A stretch of 64,000 nt of DNA, from contig JAJDUK010000064.1 in assembly GCA_022826665.1 (NCBI GenBank), positions 1 to 64,000 of the forward strand, read 5' to 3'. Numbering within the stretch: position 1 is the stretch's first letter; every line of letters starts with the position of its first letter. Below the pieces are notes generated by a model. That model saw only the letters and a program-made list of their open reading frames with translations, was not told where the DNA came from and searched no databases. A program made the translations under genes and the position numbers. Below, in pieces: positions 17,544 through 22,260 of the stretch. Source of the DNA: Alphaproteobacteria bacterium. GTDB taxonomy: Bacteria; Pseudomonadota; Alphaproteobacteria; UBA828.

Positions 17544-17747
17544 CTATTCGCTGTAGATTGTCCACTCGCCGTCTTCTCCGGTCAGGAGACCTTCGCCCGG
17601 CGGAATCTCGTCCGGATCGTCCTTCCACATGCTGGGATGGAGCGGCTCGCCGCAGGCCGCGAGACCGATAACCGCTGCGATGGCCAGGACCGGGACGATG
17701 AGTACGGTCGCGCCGCGCAAGCGCGCCTCACCCAGGACAAGGGGCAC
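17544..17747 (-). CDS. Small lipoprotein
   Basis: A 67-residue protein starting at a GTG. A hydrophobic segment (VLIVPVLAIAAVIGLAAC) ends in the lipobox LAAC, predicting lipid attachment on that cysteine. The mature part (GEPLHPSMWKDDPDEIPPGE) is short, acidic and Pro-rich. It starts 20 bp after the mlaC stop, so it is probably co-expressed with the Mla phospholipid-transport genes and may be an accessory. I do not recognise a family. Confidence 0.65.
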   Translation of the reverse strand: MPLVLGEARLRGATVLIVPVLAIAAVIGLAACGEPLHPSMWKDDPDEIPPGEGLLTGEDGEWTIYSE

Positions 17748-17767
17748 AACTTGGTTTCCATGTTGGG

Positions 17768-18409
17768 CTATTCCGCAGCGCCTTCGACCGGTGCCTCGAC
17801 GCGCGCCCGGAGGTCGCCCAGCAGGCCGTCGATTCCCTTGCGATTGACGACCGAGGCGAACTCGACCCGGTGGGTATGCAGCATGCTGATACCTTCGACG
17901 CTCACGTCGATGACCTTGTAGCCCTCGTCGCGCTTGCGCACGCGGAAATCGACCCCGATGGGATCGCCGCCGGCGGGCCGCACGATCTGCGCCCGCACGA
18001 TCTTGTCGCCACTCTCGTCATTGATCACCGAGCGTGCCGTAAACAGCTCGCCACCGTAAGAATCGAAGCGGCTGGCGTATACGCGGACGATGAAGTCGAC
18101 GAATATCCTCCGGTATTCCTTGCGCTGTTCCTTGCCCGCAGTCTTCCAATAACGCCCGAGCACGAAGCGGCTGACGATCGGAATGTCGAAGCCTTCCACC
18201 ATGACCTCGCGGAAGGCGGCCTCCCGCTCCTCGAACGTCGTGTTGGCCTTGTCCTTGAGGACCGAGATGGCCTGGTCCCCAAGGCCCTGAATGAACGTGA
18301 GCGCCGGGTCGTCGGATGCGGCGGCGCGCTGCGCGCCGAGCGCGGATAGCAATACGGCCGCAGCGAAGGCGGCGGCCGCGAGAGAGCGTCGAGAGATGAG
18401 AATGCTCAT
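17768..18409 (-). CDS. mlaC: MlaC-like phospholipid-binding protein (ABC transporter substrate-binding, Ttg2 type)
   Basis: A 213-residue periplasmic shuttle of the MlaC/toluene-tolerance Ttg2 family that carries phospholipids between the outer-membrane MlaA complex and the inner-membrane MlaFED transporter. A signal peptide is visible (AAAAFAAAVLLSALG, cleavage after AAAS). Family features are FDIPIVSRFVLGRYWKTAGKEQ, the Arg-rich YRRIFVDFIVRVYASRF, and YKVIDVSVEGISM. It follows mlaA on the same strand. The mlaF, mlaE and mlaD genes are not in this window. Confidence 0.88.
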   Translation of the reverse strand: MSILISRRSLAAAAFAAAVLLSALGAQRAAASDDPALTFIQGLGDQAISVLKDKANTTFEEREAAFREVMVEGFDIPIVSRFVLGRYWKTAGKEQRKEYRRIFVDFIVRVYASRFDSYGGELFTARSVINDESGDKIVRAQIVRPAGGDPIGVDFRVRKRDEGYKVIDVSVEGISMLHTHRVEFASVVNRKGIDGLLGDLRARVEAPVEGAAE

Positions 18410-18463
18410 GGGATGTCTGCCCTGTCTCATCCAGGCGTGCCGCGCGGTGTGCTCTTCCCCGGA

Positions 18464-19279
18464 TCACTCCTCATCGAAGTCCTCGTCGAAATCCTCATCG
18501 AAGTCGAAGTCGGGGATCTCCATCGCGGGCGGCGGCGCACCGTCCCTGATCTCCGTGGCCCGATACTGCCGGTATAGCTCACGCAATGCAGCATAAAAGT
18601 CGACCGACGTGCTTTCCAGCGTTTCCAGTTCTTCAAGGTATTGGGCGCGCTGAGAGACCCCGCTGGTGACGCCGCGGGCGAGGCCGGCCTCGGCCGGCAG
18701 GAGATAACCAAAGGGATCCGCGAACCAATCGACCCCGAAGGCCGCCGCGTCGCGGGGATTGGTAGGCCCCAGCAGCGGCAGCATGAGGAACGGCTCGCCA
18801 CCCACGCCCCATGTCGCAAGAGTCTGCCCGAAGTCCTCAGGCGTGCGCTCGTATCCCCACTCCGCGGCCACATCGAAGATGCCGCCGACGCCGATGGTGG
18901 TGTTGACCGTGAAGCGCATGAGCGTCGAGCCCGCCCGTTCGAACTTGCCCTGGGCCGCGTTGTTCACAAGGTTGAGCGGTTCCGCCAGATTGCCCAGAAC
19001 ATTGGCAATTCTGTGGCGCACTTCATTTGGAAGGATGAACACGTAGGCCTCGGCGATCGGCTTCAACAGGAAGCGGTCGATCGTCTGGTTGACCTCGAAC
19101 ATCGCCCGGTTGAAGTCTTCGAGCGGATCGTTCGCGTCGAAGGGGTCCTGAGCGCGGCCGTCTGCGGCGATACAGAGCAGCGCGCCGGCGAGCAGCAGGA
19201 TCGCCAGAAGGCGCTGCGGGGCGGCGAATGGGCCGATGGCTCGGCGCGGAGCGGGCTGTCGCGGAAGGCTCTCGCTCAT
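18464..19279 (-). CDS. mlaA: MlaA-like (VacJ) outer-membrane phospholipid transport protein with an acidic tail
   Basis: A 271-residue VacJ/MlaA protein. The core is recognised by DPLEDFNRAMFEVNQTIDRF, KPIAEAYVFILPNEVRHRI, EPLNLVNNAAQGKF and the Gly/Pro-rich FGQTLATWGVGGEPFLMLPL. It removes misplaced phospholipids from the outer leaflet of the outer membrane. The N-terminal hydrophobic stretch has one cysteine (GALLC), but Leu at -1 is a poor lipobox, and SPase I cleavage after GRAQ is an alternative. The C-terminus is extraordinarily acidic, with three DFDE repeats encoded by a 12-bp tandem repeat. It starts 8 bp after the EF-G-like stop. Confidence 0.88.
   Translation of the reverse strand: MSESLPRQPAPRRAIGPFAAPQRLLAILLLAGALLCIAADGRAQDPFDANDPLEDFNRAMFEVNQTIDRFLLKPIAEAYVFILPNEVRHRIANVLGNLAEPLNLVNNAAQGKFERAGSTLMRFTVNTTIGVGGIFDVAAEWGYERTPEDFGQTLATWGVGGEPFLMLPLLGPTNPRDAAAFGVDWFADPFGYLLPAEAGLARGVTSGVSQRAQYLEELETLESTSVDFYAALRELYRQYRATEIRDGAPPPAMEIPDFDFDEDFDEDFDEE
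18468..18503 (-). repeat. 12-bp tandem repeat encoding (DFDE)3
   Basis: Three 12-bp units (TCCTCATCGAAG, TCCTCGTCGAAA, TCCTCATCGAAG) plus a partial fourth lie at the 3' end of the mlaA gene. In the protein they give three DFDE repeats just before the stop. Changes in copy number would keep the frame. Confidence 0.8.
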
Positions 19280-19287
19280 GCCGGCGG

Positions 19288-21315
19288 TCAGTCGTCCTCC
19301 TTCGCTGCGGCGAGCACGTCGTCGGCCAGCCGCCCGGTGAGCTCCTGCAGGCGGTCGAACTGGGCTTCGAAGGTGCCGACGCCCAGGGTGAGCGAGCGCA
19401 GCTCGATGATCAGGTCGTGCATCTCCGCCTGCGGCATCTGGCTCGTCACCTCGTCCCAGCCGGACCAGTCCTCGCGCGTCTGGAAACCCAATACCTGGCC
19501 GCGGCGGCCGGTCACCAGGCGCTGGACGTTGGGCGTGAACTCGCTCGGTATCGAGATCCTGACCTCGCAAATGGGCTCCAGCAGCACCGGGTTGCACTTG
19601 GGCAGCGCTTCGGCCATCGCCATGCGGCCGGCGGTCTTGAAGGCCATTTCCGAGCTGTCGACGGAATGGTGCTTGCCGTCGGTGAGCGTCACCGAGACAT
19701 CCACCACCGGGAAGCCGAGCGGCCCGCTGGTGAGAAAGTCGCGCACGCCGGCCTCCACCGCAGGGATGTACTGGCGCGGCACGGCGCCGCCGACCACCTT
19801 TTCCTGAAACTCGAAGCCGGTACCGCGCGGCAGCGGCTTCACGTCGATATGCACGTCGCCGAACTGGCCGTGGCCGCCGGTCTGCTTCTTGAAGCGCGCG
19901 TGCTGGGAGACCGGCTTTCGGATCGCCTCCTTGTAGGCGACCTTCGGCCGCTCGGTCTGCAAACTGAGCCCGTACTTGCCGGCGAGGCGATCGAGCGCGA
20001 CCTTCAGGTGCATCTCGCCCTGGCCCCAGAGCACCGCCTCCTGGGTGTCGGGATTGGGCTGGAAGCTGAGCGACGGGTCTTCCTGGGCCAGGCGGCTCAT
20101 CGCGCCCGAGACCTTGACCTCGTCCTCACGCCGGCTGGCCCGCACGGCATAGGCATAGACCGAGGACGGCAGGTTCGCCCGCGGCATGGGCTCGACCTCG
20201 GGCCCGTCGGCGGGAGCGACGGTATCGCCGGTGGAGATGGATTCGAGCCGCCCGAGTCCGACGATCTCGCCGGCTTGCGCCTTGTCGATCTTGTTCTGCT
20301 GTTGGCCCTGCATCCGGTACATCCCGCCGATGCGCTGGCCGTCGTTGAGCGTCATGCCGTCTTCGATAGTGCCTGCCCAGACCCGCGCGAGCGATACCTT
20401 GCCGCCGTGCTGGGTCATGTAGGTTTTGACGACCTGTGCGATCGAGGCGCCGTCAGCATCGGCCGGCAGCCGCCGCGACGCGAGCGCGTCGCCGGGCGCG
20501 AAGTCGATCAGGGATTCCAGCAGGCGGCGCACGCCCCAATCCCGCTCCGCAGACCCCATCATCACAGGCACCACAGCCGCATCCGCCAGCACGCCGCGCA
20601 GGTAGGCCTGAATCTCCTCGGGCTCTGGAATTTCGTCCTCGAGCAGGCGTTCCAGGAGCGTGTCGTCGAAGTCCGCCAGGCTCTCGAGTAGCTGCGTGCG
20701 CGCGTCCTCCCGGCGTTCCAAAACCTCATCCGGCGCGTCGACGCCAACGGCACCGTCCTGGTCGCGATATTCGTAGGCCTTGCCGGTAATCAAGTCGACA
20801 TAGCCCTTGACGCTGTCGCCGTCGCGGATTGCAACCTGGCAGGGCACCAGCGGTCGGTCGCTGACCGGCTGCACCGCCTCGATCAACTCCGCGACCCGCA
20901 CCGCCGTCTCGTCCATCCTGTTGGTGAACACGACGTGCGGAATCTCATGCTGAGCCAGGTACTTGAAGAGCCGTCCCATGGTCCAGACCCGGTTCGTGTC
21001 GGGCGTGCACACGATGACGGCGAGATCGACGCCCATGAGCGCATTGGCGGTCTCGGCGAAGAACTCGATCGAGCCCGGACAGTCCAGGATCGTGAAGTGG
21101 CGGTCTCGGTACTCGAACGAGGCGGCGTTGACCTCTACGCTCGACTGGCGCCCGCGCGCCTCGTCGGACCAGTCGCCGACCGTATTGCCGTCCGTGACCT
21201 TGCCCTTGCGGCCGATTGCACCGGCCACGAACAACATGCTTTCCAGTAGCGTGGTCTTGCCGCTCGTGTAGGGGCCGACAAGCGCAATGTTCAGCGCCCC
21301 GGTCGAATCACTCAT
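19288..21315 (-). CDS. Elongation factor G-like translational GTPase
   Basis: A 675-residue homolog of EF-G, missing some conserved GTPase residues. G1 is GPYTSGKT (14-21) where EF-G has a form like AHIDAGKT. Switch II is DCPGS (78-82), with Ser82 in the place of the catalytic His of DTPGH. G4 is NRMD (132-135). Downstream are the beta-barrel domain II, domain III and domain IV (KQTGGHGQFGDVHIDVKP), and domain V ending in ITSQ-like sequence. This matches the EF-G-like subfamily common in alphaproteobacteria, whose function is unclear. It is not the housekeeping fusA. The start MSDSTGALNIALVG is preferred to an ATG 51 bp upstream. Confidence 0.87.
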   Translation of the reverse strand: MSDSTGALNIALVGPYTSGKTTLLESMLFVAGAIGRKGKVTDGNTVGDWSDEARGRQSSVEVNAASFEYRDRHFTILDCPGSIEFFAETANALMGVDLAVIVCTPDTNRVWTMGRLFKYLAQHEIPHVVFTNRMDETAVRVAELIEAVQPVSDRPLVPCQVAIRDGDSVKGYVDLITGKAYEYRDQDGAVGVDAPDEVLERREDARTQLLESLADFDDTLLERLLEDEIPEPEEIQAYLRGVLADAAVVPVMMGSAERDWGVRRLLESLIDFAPGDALASRRLPADADGASIAQVVKTYMTQHGGKVSLARVWAGTIEDGMTLNDGQRIGGMYRMQGQQQNKIDKAQAGEIVGLGRLESISTGDTVAPADGPEVEPMPRANLPSSVYAYAVRASRREDEVKVSGAMSRLAQEDPSLSFQPNPDTQEAVLWGQGEMHLKVALDRLAGKYGLSLQTERPKVAYKEAIRKPVSQHARFKKQTGGHGQFGDVHIDVKPLPRGTGFEFQEKVVGGAVPRQYIPAVEAGVRDFLTSGPLGFPVVDVSVTLTDGKHHSVDSSEMAFKTAGRMAMAEALPKCNPVLLEPICEVRISIPSEFTPNVQRLVTGRRGQVLGFQTREDWSGWDEVTSQMPQAEMHDLIIELRSLTLGVGTFEAQFDRLQELTGRLADDVLAAAKEDD

Positions 21316-21516
21316 GCTATCTCCCTTTACCCAGAACCGCGCCGGCGGGCTTCGTTCCGCGGTCACGGGGCGGGCATGTTTCCAGTGCCCCGGCCGGAAT
21401 GCAACCGCGATTAGCGCTCGATCCGCAACGAGAGAGCGGGCCGGCCGGCCCAGTCTGGCGTGGCCAGGGTGGGGCGGCTATGGTGCCTGCGGTTTGGCTG
21501 CGAGGATGGGTTTCGG

Positions 21517-22260
21517 TTGAGCATCTGGGGCAAGATCATCGGAGGCGCCGCGGGGTTCGCGCTGGGCGGCCCCATCGGCGCGATTCTCGGCGTGGCCGCC
21601 GGCCATTTCGTGGACCGCATGGCCACGGGCCGCCGCGTCCGGCGCATCGGCGCGGGCGATCAGGAGACCAAGCAGGCCGCAGTCTCGATCGCGTTGGTGG
21701 TTCTCGCTGCCAAGATGGCGAAGGCCGACGGCCGCGTCACCCGCGAGGAGATCGACGCGTTCAAGCGGGTCTTCGCCGTTCCCCAAGCCCACGCCGCTGC
21801 GATCGGGCGGATCTGGGACGAGGCGCGGCGCGAGGCGACCGGCTTCGAGCCCTACGCTGAGCAAATCGTGCAGATCTTCCCGCACGACACCACCATGCGG
21901 GAGGAAATGCTCGGCGCACTCTTCCAGATCGCCATGGCCGACGGCGAGCTGCACGAAGGGGAGCGCGCCTACCTGACCCGCGTTGCCCAAATCTTCGGCT
22001 TCGACGAGCGCAGCTTCGCGCAGATCATGTCGCGCCACATGGGTGGCGGCGAGGCCGACCCCTATCAGGTGCTCGGCGTCGAGCCCAGCGCCTCGGACGA
22101 CGAGATCAAGCAGACCTACCGCCGGCTGATCCGCGAGCATCACCCCGACAAGCTCATCGCCGAGGGCATGCCGGAGGAGATGGTCCAGGTTGCGAACGAG
22201 CAGATGGCCGCGATCAACGCGGCCTATGACAGGATCGCCAAGCTTCGCGGGCTGCGCTGA
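21517..22260 (+). CDS. TerB-like / DnaJ-domain membrane-associated protein (DjlA type)
   Basis: A protein of 247 residues from a TTG start. The N-terminus SIWGKIIGGAAGFALGGPIG is a Gly/Ala-rich membrane helix typical of DjlA-like proteins. A TerB-type helical domain follows (AAKMAKADGRVTREE, and AMADGELHEGERAYL). The C-terminal J domain is complete (DPYQVLGVEPSASDDEIK, with the HPD motif in REHHPDKL), so it should stimulate DnaK. The TTG at 21517 is chosen because the family begins with this motif; GAGGA lies ten bases upstream. Confidence 0.86.
   Translation: MSIWGKIIGGAAGFALGGPIGAILGVAAGHFVDRMATGRRVRRIGAGDQETKQAAVSIALVVLAAKMAKADGRVTREEIDAFKRVFAVPQAHAAAIGRIWDEARREATGFEPYAEQIVQIFPHDTTMREEMLGALFQIAMADGELHEGERAYLTRVAQIFGFDERSFAQIMSRHMGGGEADPYQVLGVEPSASDDEIKQTYRRLIREHHPDKLIAEGMPEEMVQVANEQMAAINAAYDRIAKLRGLR

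Follow-up and report, generated by a model that had tools for sequence, protein, structure and literature searches.

An EFG II-type paralog of elongation factor G in an alphaproteobacterium carries serine in place of the switch II histidine

The EF-G-like gene in the window (the whole stretch of 64,000 nucleotides that was analyzed) encodes a protein that falls within a known subfamily, EFG II, in its alphaproteobacterial and cyanobacterial branch, and the missing switch II histidine is a trait of the whole sampled branch, not of the window gene alone. From the pattern of retained and altered residues we consider it likely, with some reservation, that the protein is a secondary, slower translocase in which ribosome-stimulated GTP hydrolysis is strongly reduced or absent, an EFG II copy present in addition to a separate canonical fusA.

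The gene and its place in the EFG II subfamily

The open reading frame runs from ATG to TGA without interruption in the translation, and Pfam matches were obtained to EF-G domains G, II, III, IV and V, with no additional domain detected by Pfam beyond these five. The earlier note had described a P-loop of the sequence GPYTSGKT, a serine at position 82 where a histidine activates the hydrolytic water in translational GTPases, and the retention of the other EF-G domains; the two motifs were read again in the 675-residue translation (Table 1), and the Pfam matches bear out the remainder. An annotation or frame artefact was ruled out, given the intact reading frame and the presence of DCPGS in all 13 loci L015-L027.

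Table 1. Coordinates of the EF-G-like gene, its motifs and its neighbors in the window
Feature	Position	Strand	Evidence
EF-G paralog (EFG II / EF-G2 type), 675 aa	19288..21315	-	ORF, translation, NCBIfam, Pfam, tree
P-loop G14-PYTSGK-T21; Thr17 corresponds to Asp of canonical AHIDAGKT	21253..21276	-	direct reading
Switch I R56-Q-S-S-V60 instead of RGITI; Ser59 corresponds to the Mg-ligand Thr	21136..21150	-	alignment to T. thermophilus EF-G
G3 / switch II D78-C-P-G-S82	21070..21084	-	direct reading
Ser82 codon, conserved His replaced	21070-21072	-	direct reading
G4 N132-R-M-D135, guanine recognition, kept	20911..20922	-	direct reading
Domain IV tip D546-GKHHSVDSS555; His550 corresponds to tip residue His573 in T. 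thermophilus EF-G	19651..19680	-	alignment
Gap from EF-G-like stop codon to mlaA start codon, 8 bp	19280..19287		sequence
mlaA, phospholipid-binding outer-membrane lipoprotein	18464..19279	-	PF04333, 232 bits
mlaC / HpnM-like periplasmic phospholipid-binding protein	17768..18430	-	PF05494, 141 bits

An AlphaFold model based on a 21-sequence alignment has a full-length EF-G fold (pLDDT 88, pTM 0.85), with residues 36-44, directly N-terminal to the switch I motif, falling below a pLDDT of 50. All 50 Foldseek rows listed are EF-Gs, including 1wdt (TM 0.87) and the EF-G2 of Bacteroides (0.86). Since canonical and mitochondrial EF-Gs score equally high (7pjv, 0.88; 6ydp, 0.89), fold similarity does not set EF-G2 apart from other EF-Gs.

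The subfamily was assigned from a tree of 57 proteins, in which the window protein lies inside an alphaproteobacterial and cyanobacterial clade (support 100) and EFG I forms a separate clade (100); the tree comes from a quick search, carries SH-aLRT support only and does not contain a full-length Bacteroides sequence. According to the text sections of Margus et al. 2011 (PMC3150367), the EFG II subfamily includes an alphaproteobacterial and cyanobacterial sub-subgroup with a relaxed G2 motif, R/HxM(S/G)V, is marked in the P-loop region by Gly16 and Leu25 (1WDT numbering), and is always accompanied by another EF-G. By alignment, these two marks correspond to G14 and L23 of the window protein, each of which is present in 109/109 loci listed, while a canonical copy (L154) has alanine and threonine at the two sites. 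The window protein thus resembles this sub-subgroup in its grouping, its glycine and leucine marks, the loss of RGITI, the presence of a companion EFG I and a location outside the fusA-tuf locus; it differs in the third residue of G2, which is serine (RQSSV) where the group has methionine. The companion is a separate canonical fusA (G000:C53:76451-78481), which adjoins an EF-Tu gene and whose product shares 34% identity with the EF-G-like protein. Canonical EF-G has the same five domains and the same tip histidine as the window protein, but differs from it in having AHIDAGKT, RGITI and DTPGH, in forming a clade of its own and in its EF-Tu neighbor.

Profile scores were compared with the curated cut-offs. 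The best NCBIfam match is the elongation factor G equivalog NF009379, with 949 bits against a cut-off of 513, a lax threshold by which the canonical fusA of the window genome also scores 523 bits; NF009891 (708 bits, cut-off 597) and NF009381 (610 bits, cut-off 583) were both passed as well. Membership was ruled out for canonical EF-G (EFG I, TIGR00484; 439 bits versus 659, together with Ser82 and RQSSV), for the Bacteroides EF-G2 model NF058620 (379 bits, cut-off 1000), for the EF-G2 model NF009377 (461 bits, cut-off 890) and for the Tet ribosome-protection family NF012153 (259 bits, cut-off 775).

To set EFG II apart from canonical EF-G among sampled genomes, we used an NF009379 score above 600 bits, which was reached in 110 of 289 genomes sampled from Alphaproteobacteria, all at least 90% complete; the cut-off itself was passed in 174 of them. 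The 110 were all found among the 189 larger genomes, with none among the 100 of up to 2.0 Mb, a comparison in which sizes are rounded to 0.1 Mb and ancestry is ignored. We also noted that an Acidobacteriota metagenome-assembled genome (titled Geothrix) has, on a contig of 6.6 kb, an EFG II gene (L088) whose product groups with those of Alphaproteobacteria, which may reflect either transfer or a binning error.

The mlaA neighborhood

The 8-bp spacing between the EF-G-like gene and mlaA given in the earlier note was found again (Table 1), and it is identical in all six loci of the window's genus (L014-L019, window included). However, constant adjacency of the two genes, which the note had proposed to test, did not hold in the wider sample. 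Downstream sequence of 1 kb or more was available for 101 loci, with 1-6 kb visible per locus. An mlaA start lay within 100 bp downstream in 7 of these (L014-L019, and L044, which seems to be the same genome as L018); those that are classified all belong to the window's genus. In another 4, mlaA was 0.6-1.2 kb away (L020, L021 and L024, from the window's family, and L045, which seems to be the same genome as L020). Searches by tblastn, or by phmmer and HMM on open reading frames, did not find mlaA in the other 90, which include the same-family loci L022, L023, L025 and L026. These counts rest on tblastn, because the search of open reading frames omitted those overlapping the EF-G-like gene. 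A general pairing of the EF-G-like gene with mlaA was accordingly ruled out.

Co-transcription into mlaA is what the 8-bp gap by itself would suggest. A consensus scan of positions 17600-21600 gave zero promoter-like sites and zero minus-strand terminator-like sites and was uninformative. The gene following mlaA has HpnM as its best NCBIfam match, at 122 bits, below the cut-off of 160. A functional link between translation and the envelope, in which the EF-G-like protein and the Mla pathway are co-expressed and act together, would fit the conserved gap in the six same-genus genomes and the presence of mlaC after mlaA; we nevertheless hold it to be highly improbable, given that mlaA lies within 100 bp in only 7 of the 101 loci and was not found in 90. 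The mlaA-mlaC neighborhood is best described as a local arrangement.

Elsewhere in the Alphaproteobacteria the surroundings of the gene are different. Among 110 loci, 100 of which have at least 1.2 kb of upstream sequence, and with each cluster name resting on one Pfam-named member, the commonest neighbor cluster was a class I/II aminotransferase located up to 5 kb upstream (35 loci). A molybdopterin-oxidoreductase-like gene forms a cluster of 21 EFG II loci and lies downstream in most members, and a ferritin-like, possibly Dps-like, gene neighbors EFG II in 10 loci (L029-L123 set).

GTPase and domain IV tip residues across the family

We compared the critical residues across 30 loci retained from 60 related genomes and the best 80 loci in a scan that covered named genomes. 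Of the resulting 110 loci, in which the window is included as L014, all except L041 reach residue 82. Some genomes were probably counted twice, because the bases after the EF-G-like stop codon are identical between L018 and L044 and between L020 and L045.

At position 82, the 109 loci listed from this alphaproteobacterial and cyanobacterial EFG II group carry serine in 105 cases, alanine in 3 and glycine in 1, and histidine in none, which rules out a unique or recent mutation in the window gene. The alignment that the earlier note had proposed at this residue therefore gave a non-histidine state common to every locus, and because this state is common to the sampled family, Ser82 is more than a chance substitution. 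By comparison, canonical EF-G from 20 alphaproteobacterial genomes, chosen among the matches in the 60 related genomes, has histidine in 20/20, and within the window genome the canonical EF-G, LepA-like, TypA-like and IF-2-like proteins (L001, L004, L005 and L007, names assigned from sequence) all read DTPGH.

Other parts of the GTPase center have changed in the same loci. The aspartate of the canonical P-loop is absent at position 17 in all 109; according to the text sections of Atkinson 2015 (PMC4342817), this residue of AHIDAGKT is a monovalent-cation ligand. In switch I, position 58 is methionine in 89 and serine in 15 of the loci listed, and position 59 (21139-21141) is serine in 82, glycine in 22 and threonine in 5. 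The 22 loci with glycine have no side-chain Mg ligand left at this site. G1 and G4 are kept by comparison: G1 Lys20 is invariant (109/109), as is Asn132 of G4, followed by lysine in 98 and arginine in 11, and Asp135 is present in 105 and replaced by glutamate in 4. Because Lys20 and Asn132 are invariant, GTP binding is probably retained; similarly, the presence of the tip histidine His550 in 109/109 loci listed indicates that the part of the protein concerned with translocation is retained.

In the sampled proteins, loss of the histidine tracks the EFG II side of the EF-G tree, and serine is not specific to the window. Twelve more EF-G paralogs with Leu25 were found in other Pseudomonadota, not counting the group with lysine replaced by glutamate described below, and have tyrosine (11) or leucine (1) at switch II; the 9 of these placed in the tree all fall on the EFG II side, although some of the 12 may represent another paralog group because Gly16 is present in only 4 of them. 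The remaining loci of the two samples from other Pseudomonadota, 28 of 30 and 2 of 20, have histidine. Among solved EFG II structures, the alignments give DAPGY in 1wdt, DTPGY in 9k0z and DCPGS in 7uvp and 8dmf, which are identical in sequence. In the tree of 57 proteins, two clades have serine at switch II, of which one is the sister of a group with tyrosine and leucine, and at least seven changes of state are needed. The switch II residue of EFG II is not discussed in the text sections of PMC3150367 and PMC4342817, figures lying outside this scope.

A separate group of nine EF-G paralogs (L194-L202, in part the same as L174-L181; family f160) was found among 60 genomes of another Pseudomonadota class. 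Their P-loop reads (D/G)HEGAGET, with lysine replaced by glutamate in 9/9, the G4 asparagine is threonine in 9/9, and switch II has serine in 8 and cysteine in 1, while the tip histidine is present in all 8 that cover the domain IV tip. Values of dN/dS in this group are 0.06-0.08 for three pairs that are near synonymous saturation (dS 1.2-1.7), and two more pairs are saturated. These paralogs look incapable of the usual binding of GTP, yet they are conserved, which would make them a candidate nucleotide-free EF-G.

Function of the EF-G-like protein

In the mechanism that we propose, the EFG II protein would bind GTP and the ribosome and would act as a secondary translocase that moves tRNA and mRNA more slowly, its ribosome-stimulated hydrolysis strongly reduced or absent as Ser82, Thr17 and Gln57/Ser59 replace the histidine, the aspartate and Gly-x-Thr, respectively; it may be used under conditions other than fast growth. 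The closest parallel is the EF-G2 of Bacteroides thetaiotaomicron (fusA2, BT_2167; 7uvp/8dmf), which has an identical DCPGS motif, full EF-G domains and the position of a second copy beside fusA, although the window protein falls far below the cut-off of its family model. The title of a study of this factor by Han et al. reportedly describes it as 'lacking GTPase activity'. GTP-independent translation is ascribed to it in part of PMC10294740, which cites Han et al., and a section of PMC6989115 reports that its gene is up under carbon limitation while fusA drops. Because three features of the GTPase center are altered jointly, and because a relative with DCPGS has been described as having no GTPase, reduced hydrolysis of GTP on the ribosome is plausible. 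The text sections of PMC4342817 add that EFG II can replace EF-G, working far more slowly.

What weighs most against a translocase of low hydrolysis is, in our assessment, EF-G-2 of Thermus thermophilus (1wdt/2dy1), which is also an EFG II protein of close fold (TM 0.87) and also has no switch II histidine, having tyrosine (DAPGY) where the window protein has serine, and which is nevertheless reported to be active. As stated in sections of PMC3150367, this factor hydrolyzes GTP, with an intrinsic GTPase greater than that of EF-G-1, and supports poly(Phe) synthesis, so that a missing histidine alone proves nothing. Likewise, for Escherichia coli EF-G the sections of PMC4532990 consulted report ribosome-stimulated hydrolysis that is seven-fold slower in H91A and H91R, about 100-fold slower in H91E and near normal in H91Q, with release of Pi hit harder than hydrolysis in all these mutants; no serine mutant is named there. 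Since H91A is just seven-fold slower and the T. thermophilus factor with tyrosine hydrolyzes GTP, the histidine is not strictly required. The window protein could therefore be a working GTPase, an ordinary back-up EF-G like that of T. thermophilus, in which another group or the ribosome supplies the role of the histidine, and the invariant lysine of G1 and asparagine of G4 would agree with this. We regard it as rather unlikely, since the residue is serine, as in Bacteroides EF-G2, and neither tyrosine nor glutamine, and since glycine takes the place of the switch I Mg ligand in a fifth of the family (22/109 loci listed). Tyrosine, moreover, does not guarantee activity: EF-G2 of Mycobacterium smegmatis (9k0z), which also has no histidine and differs from the window protein in having tyrosine (DTPGY), binds guanine nucleotides and shows no ribosome-dependent GTPase, as summarized in text of PMC3150367.

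The earlier note had suggested that slow hydrolysis would turn the protein into a ribosome-bound brake or rescue factor. The first part of this proposal, slow hydrolysis, stays plausible for the reasons given above. For the second part, a secondary translocase is the more likely alternative, because the domain IV tip is fully conserved and because at least two EFG II proteins, those of T. thermophilus and Bacteroides, are reported to support translation. A brake or rescue factor with slow hydrolysis could be read from the same residues, and the defect in Pi release of the E. coli H91 mutants (the part of PMC4532990 cited above) could lengthen its stay on the ribosome; the ferritin-like neighbor family in other alphaproteobacteria, possibly a stress gene, might also be thought to fit. 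We judge this role improbable, because the invariant tip histidine (109/109 loci listed) points to translocation, Pfam gave nothing beyond the five EF-G domains, and a rescue factor is absent among the four named neighbor families, most neighbor clusters being unnamed.

Decay of the paralog toward a pseudogene might likewise account for the strong divergence from EF-G, the eroded G motifs and the absence from small genomes, and in one relative from the same family (G009, L022) an in-frame TAG was flagged inside the open stretch. The chance that this is the explanation appears very small. The reading frame is intact, the tip residues are invariant across Alphaproteobacteria and Cyanobacteria, and dN/dS of the gene is 0.065-0.162 in five same-genus pairs (0.064-0.137 for fusA in four), values that indicate purifying selection and contradict a pseudogene. 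Given this low dN/dS and its distribution among genomes, the gene looks like a maintained accessory gene.

The secondary translocase with little hydrolysis that we favor may belong to a broader pattern. EFG II as a whole could be a radiation of translocases that do not hydrolyze GTP, in which GTP is at most structural in the alphaproteobacterial and cyanobacterial branch, handled there as in Bacteroides EF-G2, and the branch with lysine replaced by glutamate is free of nucleotide. We offer this only tentatively, as an extrapolation from the residues that is more doubtful than not. Among the literature matches listed, none was recognized as reporting activity, expression or phenotype for an EFG II protein from Alphaproteobacteria. 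For sll0830 of Synechocystis, which we take to be the cyanobacterial EFG II copy, the literature searched yielded only table rows and an entry among regulated proteins.

The standard example of a ribosomal motor driven by GTP is EF-G, and a widespread paralog that keeps the moving part while the residues for hydrolysis are lost raises the question of how far translocation depends on GTP hydrolysis. Such an EFG II paralog may support protein synthesis at a small cost in GTP, and its retention raises the possibility of a second, less costly motor that bacteria would use when conditions are poor.
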